Both the position numbers and the translations under genes were made by a program. 64,000 nt of DNA, from positions 1,896,879 through 1,960,878 of the forward strand of contig NZ_AZAJ01000001.1 of NCBI RefSeq assembly GCF_000504205.1. The letters are read 5' to 3'. This document shows positions 5,677-64,000 of the stretch, piece after piece. The DNA is from Methanolobus tindarius DSM 2278 (GTDB lineage: Archaea; Halobacteriota; Methanosarcinia; Methanosarcinales; Methanosarcinaceae). The notes beneath the pieces are model-generated. The model ran no database searches. It worked only from the letters and a program-made list of their open reading frames with translations, and was not told where the DNA came from. Positions within the stretch are counted from its first letter, which is position 1; every line of letters begins with the position of its first letter.

Positions 5677-6633
5677 ATGGAAGTCCCGGTTGTCAAATTA
5701 CCAGATATACAGGCTAACAAGCCCCAGATACCCATTAACCTGACACGCGTCGGTGTTACTAACGTAAAAAAACTCGTACAGATTAAAAGGAGGGACAAGC
5801 GTCCGGTAATCCTCATCTGTACCTTTGATATTTTTGTAGATTTGCCATCACACCTGAAAGGTGCAAACCTCTCACGTAACTTTGAGGCTGTCGATGAAGT
5901 TCTCGAGAAGGCAGTAAACATGCCTGTCTATGAAATCGAACAGCTTTGCAGTGATGTTGCCCAGAGCCTTTTGAAGCGTCATGAATACGCAACCCGCGCA
6001 GAAGTAATTCTTAAAAGTGAGTATGTTCTCAAAAGAGAATCCCCTTCAACAAAGATGGAATGCCAGGAAGTTGTTGATATCTTTGCTGAAGCTATCGCAA
6101 TGCGTGAAGATGTAGAAAACATGAAAGTTAAGAAACTCATCGGTGCTGAAGTTGTAGGGATGACTGCATGTCCATGTGCCCAGGAAATCATGAGGGATAA
6201 CGCAAGGCAGGAACTCGAGAATATCGGTGTTGATAACAAGCACATTGCAGAGTTCCTTCACAGGGTCCCAATGGCAACACACAACCAGCGTGGACGCGGT
6301 ATAATCTCAATCGAAGTTATCGGAAACGTTTATGTTTCACTCGAGAGAATCATTGAAATTATCGAAAAGTCAATGAGTGCAAGTGTCTTTGAGCTTCTTA
6401 AAAGGGCTGATGAGGCAAATGTTGTTCAGACTGCTCACAATAATCCAAAGTTTGTTGAGGACTGTGTCAGAACAATGGCAAAGAATGTTGTCAAAGACTT
6501 CGAACATCTTCCTGATGAAGCAGTTATCACTATCAAGCAGATAAATGAAGAAAGTATCCACAGGCACAACGCCTTTGCCGAAAGGGTTGCAACCATTGGT
6601 GATCTTCGTCTTGAGATCGCTCAGGATGCTTAA
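5677..6633 (+). CDS. mptA: GTP cyclohydrolase MptA (methanopterin synthesis)
   Basis: 318 residues. The FolE2-like family signature is seen in [30 protein letters not shown] (described here in parts) and in the metal-site segment ACPCAQE near residue 165. MptA is an Fe(II)-dependent GTP cyclohydrolase that makes 7,8-dihydro-neopterin 2',3'-cyclic phosphate, the first step to tetrahydromethanopterin. An RBS-like AGAGGT precedes the ATG at 5677. It is followed 56 bp later by a DUF2098 gene; that neighbour may share the transcript. Confidence 0.94.
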
Positions 6634-42998: not shown

Positions 42999-43580
42999 AT
43001 GGGAGTGGCAGAAAATACAGTAATTGAAAATATAAAGACCAGAAGAAGTGTCCGTGAATATACGGATAAAGAGGTAAGTGATGAGGACATCAATACAATA
43101 ATTGATGCAGGTATCCATGCTCCGTCAGCTTTTAACAGTCAGCCATGGTTTTTTGTTGTAATTAAAAATCGTGAAATGATGACACGTATCTCTGATCATT
43201 GTAAACCACGTCTTCTGGCAAAACTGGAAGAGGCTACCGGTGAAACGATAGAAGACTTCAAGAAATATCTTTCTCAGGAAGAATTCAATATTTTTTATGA
43301 TGCTCCGGTACTTGTCATAATCCTTGGTAACAATGCAGCTATAACTGCGGACTATGATTGTTCCCTTTGTGCTGAAAATATGATGCTTGCAGCCCATTCA
43401 ATGGGAATTGGCAGTTGCTGGATAGGTTCTGCATGTTTTGTACAGGAAAGTGCTGAACTGCTTGAAGAGCTTGGAATTACACCTGATTACAGGGTGATTG
43501 CACCTATTGTATTCGGTTATGAACTAAGGGTGACTGAAGAACCACCTAAAAAAGAACCACCGATTGTGTGGGTTGACTGA
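42999..43580 (+). CDS. Nitroreductase-family FMN protein
   Basis: About 193 residues from ATG 42999 (GGGAGTG upstream; an in-frame TTG at 42963 is the alternative). NIKTRRSVREYTDKEVSDEDI and HAPSAFNSQPWFFVVI are the FMN-binding signatures; AENMMLAAHSMGIGSCWIG is the dimer/FMN loop. It reduces nitroaromatics, quinones or other acceptors. It ends the six-gene redox operon and may be the flavin that feeds or drains the Rieske carriers. Confidence 0.9.
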   Translation: MGVAENTVIENIKTRRSVREYTDKEVSDEDINTIIDAGIHAPSAFNSQPWFFVVIKNREMMTRISDHCKPRLLAKLEEATGETIEDFKKYLSQEEFNIFYDAPVLVIILGNNAAITADYDCSLCAENMMLAAHSMGIGSCWIGSACFVQESAELLEELGITPDYRVIAPIVFGYELRVTEEPPKKEPPIVWVD

Positions 43581-56472: not shown

Positions 56473-57312
<840 letters not shown>

Positions 57313-57388
57313 TTATTTGATGTGTTTTTTTGTTGTGTTTGTTGTACGACTGTGTTAATTATTGGAGCTGCGTTGTTTTGTATCGTAC

Positions 57389-57424
57389 AACGGAATCCTA
57401 TGTACTATGTTCCAATATATAAAA
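57389..57424 (-). promoter_or_regulatory. nifH promoter and operator-like palindrome
   Basis: On the minus strand TTTTATATATTGG is the TATA box (57412-57424), followed by GGAACATAGTACATAGGATTCC, an inverted repeat with GGAA/TTCC ends, where a repressor such as NrpR would sit. The 19-nt plus-strand string AACGGAATCCTATGTACTA (57389-57407) recurs exactly at 57849-57867. Operator identity is an inference. Confidence 0.65.
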
Positions 57425-57667
57425 CTATTGCTACTTTACTTTTATTTATTTTTCATACATTAGTTAAAAACAGTATCAGTGGCGCAAGTCCACTCGCATT
57501 TTATTTTTTATTAGTAAGTGCAGGTTATTTGTCCATTTCAGGGAATATTCGTATTTTTTGGCCCATTTTGGCAAACACTTATATATTGTAATATCTGACC
57601 TTTTCAATAAAGACCATAAACTGAAGAGTTAAGGCAATATTCTTTCTGTATTATATATTTATATTTC

Positions 57668-57851
57668 AAAAAAGCCAGGTACCGCTCTGATTTTCCGGAG
57701 CTGCGTTCAAAGCGGACCTGTCACCTAAGAGGTAGTTAGTACCATTTCCCTGCGAACGTTTTTCTCATGGCTGGTCTACCATGATTACAGGGTATGTGTT
57801 TCGTTTTTGTTTGCTTTAGGAAGCAGGTTCTATGCTTGTTAGGATACTAAC
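57668..57851 (-). ncRNA. Putative nitrogen-controlled small RNA of about 180 nt
   Basis: Behind a near-copy of the nifH promoter and with no ORF. Minus-strand folds seen: GTTAG/CTAAC at the 5' end (57851-57838); CCCTG/CAGGG (57792-57748) enclosing TCATGG/CCATGA; and a long terminator stem CAGGT-CCGCTTTGA with TCAGAGCGG-TACCTG (57720-57674) followed by TTTTTT at 57673-57668. The M. mazei sRNA154 is a known nif-linked sRNA; homology is not established here. Confidence 0.6.
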
Positions 57852-57883
57852 GGAATCCTATGTACTAGGTCTTTATATTTAAA
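57849..57883 (-). promoter_or_regulatory. Second nif-type promoter, for the ncRNA
   Basis: Minus-strand TATA TTTAAATATAAAG (57871-57883) and the same 19-nt element as nifH (57849-57867). Upstream GTAGAAATAGG mirrors GTAGCAATAGT before nifH, so about 45 bp of promoter is shared. A transposon is inserted 14 bp upstream of the TATA. Confidence 0.62.
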
Positions 57884-57897
57884 CCTATTTCTACATA

Positions 57898-57919
57898 GAT
57901 TCTGTTAAGTTAAGGAGTA
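57898..57919 (+). repeat. Left terminal inverted repeat
   Basis: 22 bp, perfect inverse of 63159-63180. Its inner end TTAAGGAGTA also supplies a Shine-Dalgarno for the gene at 57926. Confidence 0.9.
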
Positions 57920-57925
57920 TGAAAA

Positions 57926-58285
57926 ATGAAAGGAACTAACTCAAAAAATATGGAAACAAATTTAAATGTTAAAAATGATGTGAAAAGTTGGATGAGGACT
58001 TTAATTCAAGGAATTAGTTTACTTATTTTTGCTTTCTTATTGCTAATACTAACAAGCATTGATAATATGGTAGGTTTTAGCACATTTTCAAAACAATTAA
58101 CAACATTTGTAACCTTAATTTATCTTATTATTTTTTTACTATTGATAATCGATCCTAATCAAGTAAGAATATTTACACTTGGTCATTTTGAACCATATAA
58201 AAAGCTGTTGATTTTAATTGCGATGTTGCTGCTGACATATGTTTTTTTGGTACCTGCAATATTATATATGGTTGGGATGGTGTGA
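57926..58285 (+). CDS. Transposon cargo: small membrane protein (3 helices)
   Basis: 119 residues with a hydrophilic N-terminus and three likely transmembrane helices (about 30-46, 58-76, 92-112). No known family recognised. AAGGAG inside the left inverted repeat lies 7-12 nt before the ATG. It abuts the next membrane protein gene (stop then ATG with no gap), so the two are one operon. Function unknown. Confidence 0.72.
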   Translation: MKGTNSKNMETNLNVKNDVKSWMRTLIQGISLLIFAFLLLILTSIDNMVGFSTFSKQLTTFVTLIYLIIFLLLIIDPNQVRIFTLGHFEPYKKLLILIAMLLLTYVFLVPAILYMVGMV

Positions 58286-58870
58286 ATGGACCTATATGAG
58301 CTTCCACCCTACATGGATGCATTATCAACTAGTGTATGGAACACCATCTTGGGTCTAGAGATTTTGAAAACTTTGCAGTACACTGGAATTTACATTTTAT
58401 TTGGGCTAATAATGAGTGTGTTTGTGATTGTGTATTTTGATGAGAGATTAATTGATAGTTTCCTTTCATCAGATAGTAAGACATATAGCTATCCCTTAGT
58501 GTTTTATTTAACAATCTTACTTATCATTCAATTAGTAAATGCAAAAACAAACATAACAGCAATATTTGTAGAGGTTCTATTTATTCTTTTTATTGTAAAA
58601 TTGATAGGGTTAATAAATGCCAACGCTGGAAAAAATATATTGGAAATTCTGGGCGGATTTGCTTTAATAGAAATTATTTTATCACCGAATGGTAACTTAG
58701 ATAACTTAGATTATATACTAATAACTCCACTTTTTTTAATATCAATTATACTATTGTCTACAATTAAGTGTAAATGGAGTAAAGAGTTAATAGTGAACTT
58801 TTATACATGGGCTACAAATTACATTTTAATGAAGCTAATTAAAGATGAGTCAGTTAAAGAAAAAGACTAA
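58286..58870 (+). CDS. Transposon cargo: multi-spanning membrane protein
   Basis: 194 residues with five or six hydrophobic helices (for example ILGLEILKTLQYTGIYILFGLIMSVFVIVY region, and later helices to residue 160) and a lysine-rich end. No family recognised. It shares the operon with the 3-helix protein. Its stop overlaps the stop of the minus-strand 56-residue gene. Confidence 0.68.
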   Translation: MDLYELPPYMDALSTSVWNTILGLEILKTLQYTGIYILFGLIMSVFVIVYFDERLIDSFLSSDSKTYSYPLVFYLTILLIIQLVNAKTNITAIFVEVLFILFIVKLIGLINANAGKNILEILGGFALIEIILSPNGNLDNLDYILITPLFLISIILLSTIKCKWSKELIVNFYTWATNYILMKLIKDESVKEKD

Positions 58871-59037
58871 TCTTCCAAATCTTCAAATTTGGTTAAGCCC
58901 TTGACCTCATCCAACTTTTCACGCAACTTGTTTTCCCACTCTTCATACTCGATTACCCCTTTTTCTTCTAAGAGTTCAACCAAGGATGTTATCATTTTAT
59001 CCAAATGATAAATTTCACCTTCAATGTCTTTTGTCAT
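58867..59037 (-). CDS. Transposon cargo: 56-residue acidic/helical protein
   Basis: Starts MTKDIEGEIYHLDKMITSLV, then charged helix up to LTKFEDLED. It is below the usual size cutoff. Its ATG overlaps the AbrB-like stop (ATGA), so it is a coupled second gene. Possible toxin, partner or accessory protein; nothing is certain. Confidence 0.6.
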   Translation of the reverse strand: MTKDIEGEIYHLDKMITSLVELLEEKGVIEYEEWENKLREKLDEVKGLTKFEDLED

Positions 59038-59192
59038 TGTTTCACGACCTTAAGAACGAGATTGCTATTATCCATCGTCCACATCAGCTTATCACCTTTA
59101 TGAATATCAAGAAGGTTAATAAGTGCTGTGGGAATCGGTGTCGTATATTTCCCACTTGACTCCTGCACCGTTGTTTTTAGTCCTTTCGTCAT
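59034..59192 (-). CDS. Transposon cargo: AbrB/MazE-like DNA-binding protein
   Basis: 52 residues, MTKGLKTTVQESSGKYTTPI, then PTALINLLDIHKGDKLMWTM and a short tail. This is the SpoVT/AbrB swapped-hairpin pattern (KYTTPIPTAL... GDKL) of antitoxins and regulators. It starts 4 bp after the transposase stop and is coupled to the 56-residue gene. It may regulate the transposase. Confidence 0.7.
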   Translation of the reverse strand: MTKGLKTTVQESSGKYTTPIPTALINLLDIHKGDKLMWTMDNSNLVLKVVKQ

Positions 59193-59196
59193 ATCA

Positions 59197-60057
59197 TCAC
59201 GCTCCGTTTATAGATGCTTGCCATTTTGTAGCCTGATCAATCAGTGATTCCCATTTATTAGAAGTATCAATGTCAACTCCTGCAGCTTCTGCTGGAGTTT
59301 TGCCTTTAAGTGCGCTGTGTGGTCTAAGGAAATTGTAATGAACAAACCAACCCTCAAGAAGCAGTCTTGTTTTATCCATTGAATCAAGTCCACGTCTTGC
59401 CCTAAGCATGTCTTTAAGGCTTCCGTGCAGTCTTTCAACAATATTATTTGTTCTTCTGCTATTGATGCCTACATTCTGTATAAGCTTTGTATCCTTTGTA
59501 CGCCTGTCATAGAATACCTTGTTAAATGGCTTTCTGTATGCGAAACAACCATCTGCAAAGATAAACTTAGGCTTATTCATTGCCCTATTTGCTGCATCCT
59601 CAAAAAGAATTGTACAATCCTTGTTTGTACGGGTATTAGATAGATGTCCTGCGACCATGAACCGAGTATCTTCATCTATAATCTCCCAGAACCATTTTTG
59701 TTCGCCCTTGATCTTAATAGCTGTTTCATCAACGTGCCAGTTGTCACCAAATTCTACTTTGAGGCTAGAAACGTAATCATAAACGAGATTGGAGTATTTT
59801 GTAATCCAATTGTGAATTGTGACCTGTGAGACATCGACTTTAAAGATATACCTTATCTGCTCTTGGATTTTCCTTACGCTCATTCCGTCAAAGTAAAAAC
59901 CAATTGCAACAGCAATGATATGCTTCTGACTTCTCATGCGCCCGAAGTTATCATTTTCAAGGAATCTAAAGTTACATTCCTTGCACTTGTATCTCTGGAT
60001 TCCATCTCTCTTGCCTATTTTGACAACTTTTGATGAATCACATTTCTTACAGTTCAT
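59197..60057 (-). CDS. IS6/IS240-type transposase of the transposon
   Basis: 286 residues. N-terminal zinc ribbon CKKCDSSKVVKIGKRDGIQRYKCKECNFRF (in parts), an HTH, then the DDE domain: WHVDETAIKIKG (D), FIFADGCFAYRKPF (D), NIVERLHGSLKDMLRARRG (E). The catalytic triad is complete, and no frameshift is visible. Because the next gene starts 4 bp after its stop, the gene has no private left end, and the element's own ends must be the outer 22-bp repeats. Confidence 0.9.
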   Translation of the reverse strand: MNCKKCDSSKVVKIGKRDGIQRYKCKECNFRFLENDNFGRMRSQKHIIAVAIGFYFDGMSVRKIQEQIRYIFKVDVSQVTIHNWITKYSNLVYDYVSSLKVEFGDNWHVDETAIKIKGEQKWFWEIIDEDTRFMVAGHLSNTRTNKDCTILFEDAANRAMNKPKFIFADGCFAYRKPFNKVFYDRRTKDTKLIQNVGINSRRTNNIVERLHGSLKDMLRARRGLDSMDKTRLLLEGWFVHYNFLRPHSALKGKTPAEAAGVDIDTSNKWESLIDQATKWQASINGA

Positions 60058-60204
60058 AATTTAGCCTCTACTTAATATTAAGGCACCATATTATATATAC
60101 TTATTCTTACCTAAAAAGGTACCTTTATTTTACAGTGTTGGCGTAAACAATATTTATTAGTAATTCCACATATAGTTCATATATAGAGCATATATGGTAC
60201 AAAA
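60058..60204. promoter_or_regulatory. Divergent promoters of the transposase and RHH genes
   Basis: 147 bp. TATA-like ATTATATATAC near 60090 reads toward the minus-strand transposase. A perfect palindrome AAAGGTACCTTT (60115-60126) lies between the two genes, and repeated CATATA boxes (CATATAGTTCATATATAG...) precede the plus-strand RHH gene, suitable for an RHH operator. Confidence 0.5.
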
Positions 60205-60399
60205 ATGTCTATAGAAACTACAACCTATAGCAAAGTAAGTATCCCAAATCATATGAGAGATGAGATAGAAAGGATAATTGAAAATGACAAAAGGCTTGGT
60301 TTTGTTTCAATTCAAGAATTTGTGAAAGAAGCTATCAGGAGAAGTATTATACAATATGGGGGGATTTCTGATCAAAACCCTGATGAACTCGATGAATAG
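60205..60399 (+). CDS. Transposon cargo: ribbon-helix-helix (CopG-type) regulator
   Basis: 64 residues. YSKVSIPNHMRDEIERIIEN gives the beta-strand and first helix, and LGFVSIQEFVKEAIRRSIIQ the second helix, the standard RHH layout. The tail is acidic (DQNPDELDE). It lies alone before a small spacer (62 bp) with its own TATA (about 60418). It may repress the cargo or itself. Confidence 0.8.
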   Translation: MSIETTTYSKVSIPNHMRDEIERIIENDKRLGFVSIQEFVKEAIRRSIIQYGGISDQNPDELDE

Positions 60400-60461
60400 T
60401 TTCACCATGCAAATTTAGTCTATATATAGCACAAAAAACAAAATGGATATTAGGTAGACAA

Positions 60462-61061
60462 ATGGAAAACAACTCTAATAATTATGAAGGGGAGCATCCC
60501 GAAATTATAAAGCAAAAGGGACTTGAAAGTTTAATATTACTAATAATAGGTGCAGATAAATCTCCTATCTCGTTACTTCATCTCCAAAAAGAAACTTTTT
60601 TGTTATGGAACTTTCACCCATATATGAAAGAGTTTATCCACTTTGTTGGACATTACAGAGGTCCATTTTCATCAGAAGTAGAAAAGACTGTACTTTATCC
60701 ACGTTATCTTGAAGACTGCTGGTCATACATTCCACCACGTGCAAAACCATCGCGGGATATACTTAGTGGTGGATATGTGCAGATAACTCAAAAAGGACAA
60801 AATAAGTATGATGAAATATACTCAAGAGCCGTTAAATTAGATAACTTAAGAGTATTGTTATCTGGGATTAAGGCAGTTCGTGAATTATATGATAAACTGA
60901 ACGAAGAAGAGCTTCTCCTTTTGATTTATGATACTTATCCCGAATATAAACTAAAATCGAATGTTTCAAATATGATATTTGATAAAAAAAATATGTTAGC
61001 GAAACAAATTTATGAAAAAGGCTTCATTGATAAAGAAAGAATGGAAAATCTGATAGGGTAG
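60462..61061 (+). CDS. Transposon cargo: unknown protein, first of a three-gene unit
   Basis: 199 residues. LHLQKETFLLWNF and HYRGPFSSEVEK recall the Panacea/SocA-like (DUF4065) antitoxin pattern (LQK..., GP-S), but the match is weak and read by eye. Mixed helices, no membrane segment. It lies 6 bp before the PIN-like gene, which is the position an antitoxin would have. Start ATG 60462; TCTATATATAGC at about 60418-60429 is the likely TATA box. Confidence 0.6.
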   Translation: MENNSNNYEGEHPEIIKQKGLESLILLIIGADKSPISLLHLQKETFLLWNFHPYMKEFIHFVGHYRGPFSSEVEKTVLYPRYLEDCWSYIPPRAKPSRDILSGGYVQITQKGQNKYDEIYSRAVKLDNLRVLLSGIKAVRELYDKLNEEELLLLIYDTYPEYKLKSNVSNMIFDKKNMLAKQIYEKGFIDKERMENLIG

Positions 61062-61067
61062 AGTCAA

Positions 61068-61658
61068 ATGTGTGATAATGTTGTTGCTGATAGTTCTTTT
61101 TATATTTGCTATTGTGATGACATAAAAAAACACGATTTTTTATCTGACATTTTATCTTTGTATTCATTTCATGTAGGTCCGATAATAAAAGGTGAATTGC
61201 CAGAAGATTTAATTGATTCTAATTATTTTCAATCATCTGTTGCAGTCAATGATGCATCTTTTTTTGAGCTTGTAAAACCATATTTCGGCAGAATAGATAG
61301 TCATAAAAATGATGGTGAATATGAAGCAATTGGATTAGCATACGATTTAAATACTACATCAAATTTAAAATGTTTAATCATAGATGAAAGAAGGGCATAT
61401 AATTTTGTAAATAGTAATTTTCCCTCGTTGAAAAGCAAGTTAACTCGGAACATCGGCTTTATTCTGAATTGCTGCCAAACAGATAAAACAGTATCTGTTC
61501 ACTTAGTGATTGATATTCTAGAAAGCATAAAAGAATGTATCATTGAAGCGGAAACCAATGGAAACCAAAAACGTCCATGTAGTTTTGATAAAAAAACATG
61601 TGAAGAGATTATTGTAAAATTAATTAAACAACTTAAGGATAAATATGTCTGTTCTTGA
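61068..61658 (+). CDS. Transposon cargo: PIN-like nuclease (DUF3368-like)
   Basis: 196 residues. Acidic residues fall at the places expected of a PIN fold: VADSSFYICYCD (N-terminal Asp), HKNDGEYEAIGLAYDL (Glu), CLIIDERRAYNFV (Asp, Glu). DUF3368 PIN proteins have just this GEYEA...IIDERRA order. It would be a ribonuclease toxin or an RNA-cutting effector. It is overlapped by 14 bp by the next gene. Confidence 0.65.
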   Translation: MCDNVVADSSFYICYCDDIKKHDFLSDILSLYSFHVGPIIKGELPEDLIDSNYFQSSVAVNDASFFELVKPYFGRIDSHKNDGEYEAIGLAYDLNTTSNLKCLIIDERRAYNFVNSNFPSLKSKLTRNIGFILNCCQTDKTVSVHLVIDILESIKECIIEAETNGNQKRPCSFDKKTCEEIIVKLIKQLKDKYVCS

Positions 61659-62958
61659 ATATGATTCTCACATTACAATTGAAGAAGAGCCTATAGCAGA
61701 AGTCAGAAACCCTGATTACTGCGTTCGTTCTATTGAACTAGAAAATATAGGTAAGAAGCTGGATACTCCATTTAAGATATTATCAGGCGATGGAGTTACT
61801 GAAACAGAGCTAAACCATTATAGTACAGCTTTATCAAATCCAATATTTGAAAGTGCGAGGTTCTTACAGGCCCCTATAAGTTGGGCTGGATTAGAAAAAT
61901 ATCTTACTGAATACTCTTCTCACAAAAGAAACCAAAGCCTGAGAGATTTTTTTAAAATTAAAAACAAACAATTTTGGGATAAATCCTTAACAACGCTTTC
62001 GTTGTCATTTCCAAGAAATCCATTTGAAAAACAGTCATTTAAAACAGTTGAATTTGGTGGGCTTGACGATGATAGTTATCTCTATTTATTGAATTTTATA
62101 CATGCTAATTCTTCCGCTTTTGTTTTAGTTCCTGATATAAAAATTGAAACCAATGATTTTGTTTCAACCTATCTTGAAAAAATAGATTTTAGTGTAAAGA
62201 TACTTTCTGATATAAACAGTAAACCTATTTTTGTTCCTTTGCCGCTAACTGCATCTGAAAATGTAACGGTAAAGATATTACAACACTATAAACAAAATAA
62301 GTATTCTAATATATGGATCAATTTTAATGATAAGCCATGTGATTCTAATTTTTCTGCAGATCTTCGATCAACAAAACAATTGATTAACAAATATATGGAT
62401 GGCTTGAGTGTTGTTCTTCACTGTTCTCATATAAAAAGAGGGATACTACCACATTTACAAGATACGCAAGTGGCTTCATCTGATGTTTTGACACAGTTTT
62501 TTGGTGCAGACTTTATAGGCGTTAAGCGATTTGGTGCTGGAAGAAATCCATATGCTGATGATCCAGAACACTTAGCACAAGAAGCACTTAAAAATAATTT
62601 TGACACTATAGAACAATACCAGCAAGCAAAAGAAGATAGTGCAACAAGAATGTTTGATCCAACCACTTATTATTATCACAATTTGGATGAATATTCATAT
62701 AGCACTGATTTTGACATGACACTACTGCGGGATCGAACACACAACAAAATAGTAAATGATTTGTTAATACATGGTGAAGTTGAGTCAGTAAAAAAGTATG
62801 TTGAAGAAAATGCAGATACGTCTATAACTAGCCGCCCACTTAAAAAGTATCTTCAACAAAAGAAAATGATTCAAGAAAACCTATTGATTAAGGATGCACT
62901 TATTCCAAAAACAATTGCTCCTACACTATCTGATCTTGCAGATATATTAGGCATTTAA
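61645..62958 (+). CDS. Transposon cargo: 437-residue unknown protein
   Basis: No family recognised. It has mixed alpha/beta segments such as KPIFVPLPLTASENVTVKIL, SNIWINFNDKP and LSVVLHCSHIKRGILPHLQDTQVASSDVLTQFFGAD (TIM-barrel-like spacing; possible distant relation to tRNA-guanine-transglycosylase-like enzymes is a guess). The C-terminus is helical (PLKKYLQQKKMIQENLLI). It overlaps the PIN-like gene by 14 bp, so the two are translated together. Confidence 0.55.
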   Translation: MSVLEYDSHITIEEEPIAEVRNPDYCVRSIELENIGKKLDTPFKILSGDGVTETELNHYSTALSNPIFESARFLQAPISWAGLEKYLTEYSSHKRNQSLRDFFKIKNKQFWDKSLTTLSLSFPRNPFEKQSFKTVEFGGLDDDSYLYLLNFIHANSSAFVLVPDIKIETNDFVSTYLEKIDFSVKILSDINSKPIFVPLPLTASENVTVKILQHYKQNKYSNIWINFNDKPCDSNFSADLRSTKQLINKYMDGLSVVLHCSHIKRGILPHLQDTQVASSDVLTQFFGADFIGVKRFGAGRNPYADDPEHLAQEALKNNFDTIEQYQQAKEDSATRMFDPTTYYYHNLDEYSYSTDFDMTLLRDRTHNKIVNDLLIHGEVESVKKYVEENADTSITSRPLKKYLQQKKMIQENLLIKDALIPKTIAPTLSDLADILGI

Positions 62959-63224: not shown

Positions 63225-64000
63225 TTAATATGCCTTTTTTAAGGTAAACCAGAAGATACTACCATGCCCTTCCTGATTGTCGAAAACTCCAACCTTTTCT
63301 CCATGAAGATCCATGATTCGTTTTACAATAGCAAGTCCTATCCCACTGCCTTTGATATTTTCTTTGTGCAGCCTGTTAAAACGTGTGAATACAGCCTCTT
63401 TGTCAGCGTCAGGGATGCCATCACCCTGGTCAGCAACAGAGACCTTCCATTTGTCCGCAAAGTCTTCTATTTTCACAGTAATAGTGGTGTTATCGGGGCT
63501 GTATTTGATTGCATTTGATATGAGGTTTGTAAATACACCTTCAATCATGGGATTGGCAAATGCAAAGCATGTTTCGCTTTTTTCAAATACTAATTTCATT
63601 TTGTGGCTATTCAGACTCTGTTCGAAGGAACATAATGTAGTTTCTGCCATGGAAGCAATATCGGTTCTGACAAATGCCATCTCATCAATTGATTCAAGTT
63701 TAGCGAGTTTGGCTGCATTCTCTATAAGATCTGTAAGTTTGAGATTTGATTTTTTAATGTTCTCGATGAGAAGTTTCTGTTTTTCACTTGTTGCTGTCTC
63801 CTCAAGAAGCTCTGTAAATGATTTAATAAGTCCTGCAGGGTTTAGCAGGTCATGGCGAAGAACATCGGTAAAAAGGTCTTTTATTTCATTGGATTTCTGG
63901 AGTTTTTTTGCATATTCTATGAGTTTAATCTCATCCTTTCTCTTTTCGGTAATATCTTCTCCTGAAATCAGTATGTTTGTGATATTTCCTTTAGCATCTT
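63225..64000 (-). CDS. Sensor histidine kinase, C-terminal part (cut by window edge)
   Basis: Minus strand, open to the right edge; about 258 residues are visible. The upstream end reads GEDITEKRKDEIKLIEYAKKLQKSN, the end of a PAS/PAC domain; then the phosphoacceptor box LFTDVLRHDLLNPAGLIKSF with His; then the ATPase motifs N (LISNAIKYS), G1 (VADQGDGIPD) and G2 (GSGIGLAIVKRIMDLHGE). It is a HisKA-type kinase of the archaeal PAS class. The transposon end is 45 bp past its stop. The signal and partner regulator are unknown. Confidence 0.93.
   Translation of the reverse strand, partial: DAKGNITNILISGEDITEKRKDEIKLIEYAKKLQKSNEIKDLFTDVLRHDLLNPAGLIKSFTELLEETATSEKQKLLIENIKKSNLKLTDLIENAAKLAKLESIDEMAFVRTDIASMAETTLCSFEQSLNSHKMKLVFEKSETCFAFANPMIEGVFTNLISNAIKYSPDNTTITVKIEDFADKWKVSVADQGDGIPDADKEAVFTRFNRLHKENIKGSGIGLAIVKRIMDLHGEKVGVFDNQEGHGSIFWFTLKKAY

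Follow-up and report, generated by a model that had tools for sequence, protein, structure and literature searches.

Why should a promoter element of nifH occur a second time, a few hundred base pairs upstream of nifH, at a site that is followed by no gene for a protein? We addressed this question in a window of the Methanolobus tindarius DSM 2278 genome (the window being the whole stretch of 64,000 nucleotides that was analyzed) and in related genomes. The best explanation, to which we assign a probability of about 0.5, is that the second copy belongs to an independent small RNA (sRNA) gene of the nitrogen regulon, and that the RNA acts as a base-pairing regulator that lowers the synthesis of the ammonium transporter AmtB3 in the organisms that carry amtB3. 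What the sequences themselves show is the shared element, the conservation of the RNA as a unit, the lack of a long ORF, the location in a nitrogen island, and the complementarity observed in relatives.

The promoter element and the nitrogen island

The gene order in M. tindarius is a ubiB-like gene, nrpR, amtB, glnK, a receiver-PAS-histidine kinase gene, a 5-kb insert with a transposase gene, the RNA, and nifH-nifI1-nifI2-nifDKEN. The nifI names are backed by P-II matches; nifD, nifK, nifE, and nifN were named by reading the ORFs. Two genes encode NrpR regulatory domains, and one of them, with HTH and NRD domains, lies outside the window, ~4 kb past its end. The features of the region are as follows.

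56473-57294, minus strand: nifH, followed by nifI1, nifI2, nifD, nifK, nifE, and nifN
57295-57391, minus strand: nifH 5' leader, with the stem GUUGUACGAU/GUCGUACAAC (57391-57382 with 57350-57341) and AACGCAGCTCC (57374-57364) in the loop
57389-57424, minus strand: nifH promoter, with a TATA box at 57424-57416 and the operator-like element TAGTACATAGGATTCCGTT at 57407-57389
57530-57650, minus strand: another conserved noncoding element, which has a TATA-like box and is located downstream of the RNA and upstream of the nifH promoter
57849-57883, minus strand: RNA promoter, with the TATA box TTTAAATA at 57883-57876 and the second copy of TAGTACATAGGATTCCGTT at 57867-57849
57926-62958, no strand assigned: insert that separates the kinase gene from the RNA and contains the transposase gene at 59197-60057
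63225-63998, minus strand: end of the receiver-PAS-histidine kinase gene, which runs past the window and is preceded upstream by glnK, amtB, and nrpR

The two 19-nt copies of TAGTACATAGGATTCCGTT are both on the minus strand and exactly 460 bp apart, the second lying upstream of nifH. The wider match between the two promoters covers 46 bp (83% identical, E 2.4e-6), and when the ~670-nt region was shuffled 1000 times with dinucleotides preserved, the longest direct repeat was at most 15 nt, compared with the 19 nt observed. An initial sequence-only reading, which described a promoter of about 45 bp with 19 identical nucleotides repeated 460 bp upstream in the same orientation, was thus accurate. 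Its description of this as a duplicated nif-type promoter holds for the shared element and fails for a recent duplication: the flanks of the two promoters are unrelated and the homologous RNA promoters are 1-2 bases off the nifH element, which indicates an old shared regulatory element.

The distribution of the 18-mer core, TAGTACATAGGATTCCGT, was examined by scanning the 27 Methanolobus genomes; up to 3 mismatches were allowed, and the reversed pattern served as a control. The M. tindarius genome has two exact sites, the nifH and RNA promoters, and its sole other site has 3 mismatches, which is the level of the control. The core is exact in the nifH promoters of 20 of the 27 genomes and has one mismatch in 4 more, and the RNA promoters of the five RNA-bearing genomes deviate from it by 0-2 mismatches. 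Nearly all remaining sites in the genus have 3 mismatches and are about as common as those of the reversed pattern, although some of them, which recur ahead of small ORFs, may be genuine.

In both promoters the TATA box is at about -32/-33 from the inferred start, and nifH and the RNA share the element at an equal distance from it, as members of one regulon would. The nifH copy forms a nearly perfect palindrome, GTACAnnGGATTCCnnTGTAC, of which the RNA copy does not retain the right outer arm; the element is an interrupted palindrome at nifH (GTACATAGGATTCCGTTGTAC, after the TATA box and before the inferred start) and is of the nif type at the RNA (GTACATAGGATTCCG). The amtB-glnK promoter of the genus has a diverged form, TCTACACATAGCATCCGTCTTCC, at the same distance from the TATA box; neither this form nor the palindrome figured in the sequence-only reading. 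NrpR operators of Methanosarcina, like the Methanolobus element, are located between the TATA box and the start. Their sequence is GGTA-N6-TACC, as against GTACAnnGGATTCCnnTGTAC at Methanolobus nifH, and a search of the window and of the 8.5 kb upstream for GGTA-N6-TACC gave no site. Methanosarcina nifH promoters carry TAGTACAACGGTTACCGGCTTCC at the place of the Methanolobus nifH element, with TAGTACAACGG at the position of TAGTACATAGG. As related elements occupy the same place in Methanosarcina nifH and in amtB-glnK of the genus, we infer that the element is an NrpR-type nitrogen operator of Methanolobus, to which NrpR would bind. Production of the RNA together with nif under nitrogen limitation, as the sequence-only reading proposed, is well motivated from these sequences, since the same class of element is present at nifH and amtB-glnK and an NrpR gene is next door.

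Further observations concern the nif leader region. The nitrogen-regulated transcripts of the genus (nifH, 57391-57341; amtB in locus L226; the RNA) seem to begin with a hairpin at +1, which may protect the 5' end; at nifH, the right arm of the operator palindrome is also the 5' arm of this hairpin. The element at 57650-57530 (minus strand) reads TTGCCTT(A/G)AC ... TATATAAG ... AAAAATA, recurs in many Methanolobus genomes, and may serve as an activator site or mark another start. The insert at 57926-62958 contains five ORFs with no Pfam match among those tested and occupies the position of amtB3 in relatives.

The predicted RNA and its relation to sRNA154

The sequence downstream of the second element has the following features.

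57668-57851, minus strand: RNA gene, ~184 nt, with the inferred +1 at 57851 and a terminator T6 run at 57673-57668
57843-57851, minus strand: 5' arm of the closing stem, GUUAGUAUC
57821-57839, minus strand: conserved block ACAAGCAUAGAACCUGCUU, complementary to the Shine-Dalgarno (SD) sequence and AUG of amtB3 in relatives
57789-57805, minus strand: linker AACGAAACACAUACCCU, which in relatives is complementary to the amtB3 leader at its 5' end
57735-57743, minus strand: 3' arm of the closing stem, GGUACUAAC
57721-57738, minus strand: conserved AACUACCUCUUAGGUGA, retained also in the truncated copy of genome G039
57675-57720, minus strand: terminator hairpin, whose loop has AACGCAGCUCC (57707-57697), a sequence also present in the nifH leader

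The RNA contains no ORF of at least 50 amino acids on its strand, in agreement with the sequence-only reading, and its 5' end, GUUAGUAUCC, has no start codon near +1. A 192-nt stretch of the RNA folded in ViennaRNA with z = -3.55. The consensus fold comprises the terminator, a 9-bp stem that begins at +1, and three hairpins: AAGCA..UGCUU, a nested central one, and the small ACCUcuuAGGU. Among the structures that the sequence-only reading described, the nested central hairpin and the terminator (a stem of 14 pairs with one bulge, followed by the T6 run) were recovered. The local 5' hairpin, GUUAG..CUAAC, is present in M. tindarius and broken in 2 of 5 homologues, and its arm is shared with a long-range stem: GUUAG alternatively pairs with CUAAC at about nucleotides 113-117, within the 9-bp closing stem, in which 93% of cells are paired. 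In the core of the consensus structure 94% of cells pair, versus 25-46% in slid versions. Covariation does not serve as proof of this structure: a single pair is changed on both sides, and 374 of 500 shuffles reach the observed values. The consensus structure is therefore plausible rather than proven.

A search of the window against Rfam returned a tRNA as its sole match; the RNA was below the gathering threshold of every family, its best match having an E value of 0.46, far below threshold. The closest known counterpart is sRNA154 of Methanosarcina mazei, an RNA of ~135 nt that is transcribed only under nitrogen limitation, stabilizes the nifH, nrpA, and glnA1 mRNAs, and masks the ribosome-binding site of glnA2. 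The literature describes sRNA154 as an intergenic RNA with a nitrogen-regulator-type operator (PMC3177094, PMC11549558, PMC5867862, PMC11456600), specifically an NrpRI operator GGTA-N6-TACC in its promoter (PMC3177094), as having a conserved leaderless small ORF (sORF) from nucleotide 4 (PMC11456600), and as highly conserved within the Methanosarcinales (PMC9765008).

The two RNAs have several features in common. In both, the operator immediately follows the TATA box and a long closing stem starts at +1 with loops inside, a stem for which covariation is weak in the Methanolobus RNA. Both have an A/C-rich linker with CGAAAC and CACACA, and some sRNA154 copies share AACUACC(C/U)UCU directly after the closing stem. 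Both belong to methylotrophic methanogens of the same family, and by analogy the Methanolobus RNA would be expressed under nitrogen limitation. These similarities raise the possibility that it is a highly diverged orthologue of sRNA154 that stabilizes nif, nrpA, and glnA mRNAs. We consider this unlikely, because covariance models of the two RNAs miss each other in both directions. The sRNA154 model, built from 9 Methanosarcina copies after the M. mazei gene had been located via published primers, matched 17 of 30 genomes of group g13 at E <=2.5e-23 (with two further weak matches there, 0.2 and 0.99) and 3 of 4 genomes of g5 (E 7.6e-17, 7.4e-14, and 0.012). It matched none of the 27 Methanolobus genomes (g1), most of which have nif genes, and what stands under the nif element here is instead an unrelated RNA. 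Applied unfiltered to the window, the model found nothing at the RNA and nothing above chance, the top score being 8.4 bits elsewhere; conversely, the model of the Methanolobus RNA matched no sRNA154 locus. The Methanolobus RNA is also longer (184 versus ~135 nt), is flanked by amtB3 or nif genes rather than located in the MM3337/MM3338 intergenic region, has no leaderless TTG start of an sORF at nucleotide 4, has a nif-type element in place of GGTA-N6-TACC, and has a different predicted target, an ammonium transporter. Membership of the sRNA154 family is thus rejected, and of the comparison made in the sequence-only reading the analogy in regulatory logic is what stands.

NfiS and NfiR of Pseudomonas stutzeri are bacterial small RNAs that are also tied to nitrogen fixation. 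The likeness is one of description; they differ from the Methanolobus RNA in their domain, regulator, and targets. Our literature search yielded neither a paper on a Methanolobus sRNA regulated by nitrogen, nor transcript data for this RNA, nor expression data for the genus under nitrogen limitation; "nif" is absent from the accessible part of the start-site paper on M. psychrophilus (PMC5378194).

Conservation of the RNA within the genus

Full copies of the RNA with its promoter are present in M. tindarius and four related genomes (G046, G061, G062, and G063), i.e., in 5 of the 27 genomes of the genus and 5 of the 111 of the family, so that the sequence-only claim of a folded noncoding RNA behind the second copy gains a unit that is conserved together with its promoter. 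The best matches to the covariance model had E values of 5.8e-29 to 2.2e-32 and the weakest 8.1e-28, the matched copies being members of the model by construction. None of the 84 other genomes of the family has a convincing copy; matches in three further family genomes, at E 0.65-0.96, are regarded as chance. Most genomes of the genus lack the RNA, and its distribution is patchy. In a nifH tree the carriers fall in one part, mixed with genomes without the RNA; several nodes are weak (support 0.1-0.6), so that this is a rough placement only.

A possible objection is that the locus is simply a DNA site for a shared regulator, giving rise to a short abortive or read-through transcript with no function. 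Loss or truncation of the RNA in the close relatives G039, G043, G058, and G060 would be in accord with this, and in G039 the remnant is the 3' half of the RNA alone, without a promoter, directly behind the kinase gene (L189, 5092-5174). However, conservation spans the entire RNA as far as the terminator and peaks in the loops and linker rather than in the promoter, which makes this explanation improbable. Identity to G062 per 30-nt block is 0.83-0.97 from 57870 to 57721 and 0.60-0.73 in the terminator region, and is 0.17-0.47 just upstream of the RNA promoter (57901-58020). Downstream of the RNA, at 57660-57541, it is 0.67-0.90, because the second conserved element precedes nifH there. The core AGCAUAGAACCUGCUU of the block ACAAGCAUAGAACCUGCUU is invariant in all five copies. 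In G063 the RNA and nifH are 4 kb apart, with an IS element and other DNA between them, which indicates an independent RNA gene rather than a remote leader of nifH.

The loop of the terminator suggests another role. Since its AACGCAGCUCC is identical over 11 nt to the loop of the nifH 5' hairpin in M. tindarius, the RNA could be a decoy of the nifH leader that titrates a binding protein or RNA, and the motif GCAGCUCC is found in 20 of 24 nifH leaders of the genus, in 3 of 5 RNA copies, and in the G039 remnant. We judge this role to be very unlikely: 34 of 2000 shuffles share at least 11 nt, and the motif has been lost from the RNAs of G046 and G063 but retained in their nifH leaders. A short coding transcript, whose product would be a 10-codon ORF (MRKTFAGKWY in M. 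tindarius, with related ORFs of 8-10 codons in 5 of 5 copies) or other micro-ORFs, is the least credible alternative, as no ribosome-binding site precedes the ORF, its length varies (G061 has a stop after 8 codons), and its conservation follows from its position within a conserved hairpin.

amtB3 as a candidate target

The sequence-only reading named no target, and the lead described here is new. In G046, G061, and G062, the position of the M. tindarius insert is occupied by a divergent gene, amtB3, for a second ammonium transporter (Pfam Ammonium_transp) that is 31-34% identical to amtB1. In G058, amtB3 is at the same position beside a different RNA, designated RNA C. The RNA or its G058 analogue is thus present at 4 of 4 loci with an adjoining amtB3, versus the RNA at 2 of 10 other loci (Fisher's test, 0.015, kinship being ignored); the G053 and G045 loci stop short of the kinase gene, and absence there applies to the 10 kb examined.

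The most conserved block of the RNA, ACAAGCAUAGAACCUGCUU, can pair with amtB3 at two places, the SD region (AGGCAGGU) and a stretch that includes the start codon (UAUGUUUG). In the amtB3 mRNA of G061, G062, and G058, UGUGUUUCGU at the inferred 5' end can pair with the linker, ACGAAACACA. Both contacts form together, in antiparallel order, in minimum-energy co-folds, with gains of -14.4 (G061) and -11.8 (G062) kcal/mol; the M. tindarius RNA gains -16.6 with the G062 leader and -17.3 kcal/mol with the G061 leader. In G046, where the RNA is ~60 bp from the amtB3 start, the presumed leader has the SD/AUG contact only and the 5'-end contact is missing, and G058, with its different RNA, has the linker contact only.

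Shuffled targets reached the observed gains in 1 of 200 and 3 of 200 cases, and shuffled RNAs did as well in 5 of 100 (G061) and 17 of 100 (G062); for the individual segments the counts were 0-11 of 2000 for RNA blocks and 0-2 of 2000 for targets. These numbers overstate the match, which was spotted by eye post hoc after many sequences had been viewed, and similar duplex energies recur elsewhere about once per several kilobases. Among 86 gene starts pooled from M. tindarius, G061, and G062, the amtB3 start of G061 ranked first and that of G062 fourth (-10.8 in the window used for the pool). Two other M. tindarius gene starts, at 42999 (a nitroreductase-like ORF by reading) and 35230, scored -13.4 and -11.7, so amtB3 is not uniquely separated. 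As for other targets, antisense matches to the gene starts of nif, glnK, amtB1, nrpR, and the kinase gene were limited to 8-10 nt, by estimate no more than chance, and duplexfold without accessibility over 73 gene starts was uninformative.

M. tindarius and G063 keep the conserved pairing segments, although amtB3 was not found in the window or in 12 flanking stretches of ~20 kb of M. tindarius (~240 kb of flanks; the part examined is ~10% of the genome) or within the island of G063. In these organisms amtB3 is elsewhere, has been lost, or is not the target.

In the mechanism that we infer from these sequences, it is a prediction in each case that the RNA is transcribed, that nitrogen controls it, that NrpR is its regulator, that amtB3 is its target, and that the effect is negative. 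In the presence of ammonium, NrpR (or another regulator of the nif element) would repress the RNA together with nifH and amtB-glnK. Under nitrogen limitation, an RNA of ~184 nt would be made, ending at its own terminator. In amtB3 carriers its conserved 5' block would cover the ribosome-binding site and start codon of amtB3 while the linker pairs with the 5' end of the mRNA, so that less AmtB3 would be synthesized while nitrogen is being fixed. The predicted pairing would depend on AGAACCUGC.

The antisense strand of the RNA collinearly resembles the amtB3 5' region, from an inverted copy of which the RNA may have originated. A more far-reaching and distinctly tentative possibility is that this is a lineage-specific archaeal sRNA that originated from the divergent amtB3 leader by inverted, partial copying and came under the nif operator, that switching on nitrogenase shuts off amtB3 translation, and that other genomes substitute other nif-element RNAs (RNAs B and C), so that the slot turns over fast. 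If the RNA works as proposed, archaeal nitrogen control would combine a stable promoter element with small RNAs that change quickly, and the pairing with amtB3 would add a concrete target prediction, testable by mutation, to the few that exist for archaeal sRNAs.

Other transcripts and variants of the element were observed in the genus. RNA C of G058 (L191, 6365-6440) is shorter than the M. tindarius RNA and has a nif-type element, a closing stem of 10 bp, the same linker, ACGAAACACACA, and 12 nt of complementarity to the 5' end of amtB3. A candidate RNA B with a nif-type element is present in G043, G046, and G063, between the RNA or the kinase gene and nifH; its element is the variant GGATGCCGA or CTGCCGA (L190, about 5840-5990; L185, about 6140; L188, about 4950, minus strand). 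In L067, L068, and L182-L184, the variant CACATAGGAATCCGATGTATG, or one close to it, precedes a small conserved ORF (MKDTWEKVFEYASSPLHGTMSRKL...), which is interrupted by a stop in G060. The variant GGATGCCGA or GGCTGCCGA is found before a different small ORF of ~54 codons (MDIATTLRYKVINLNHFRRC... in G059) in L179, L180, and L181.
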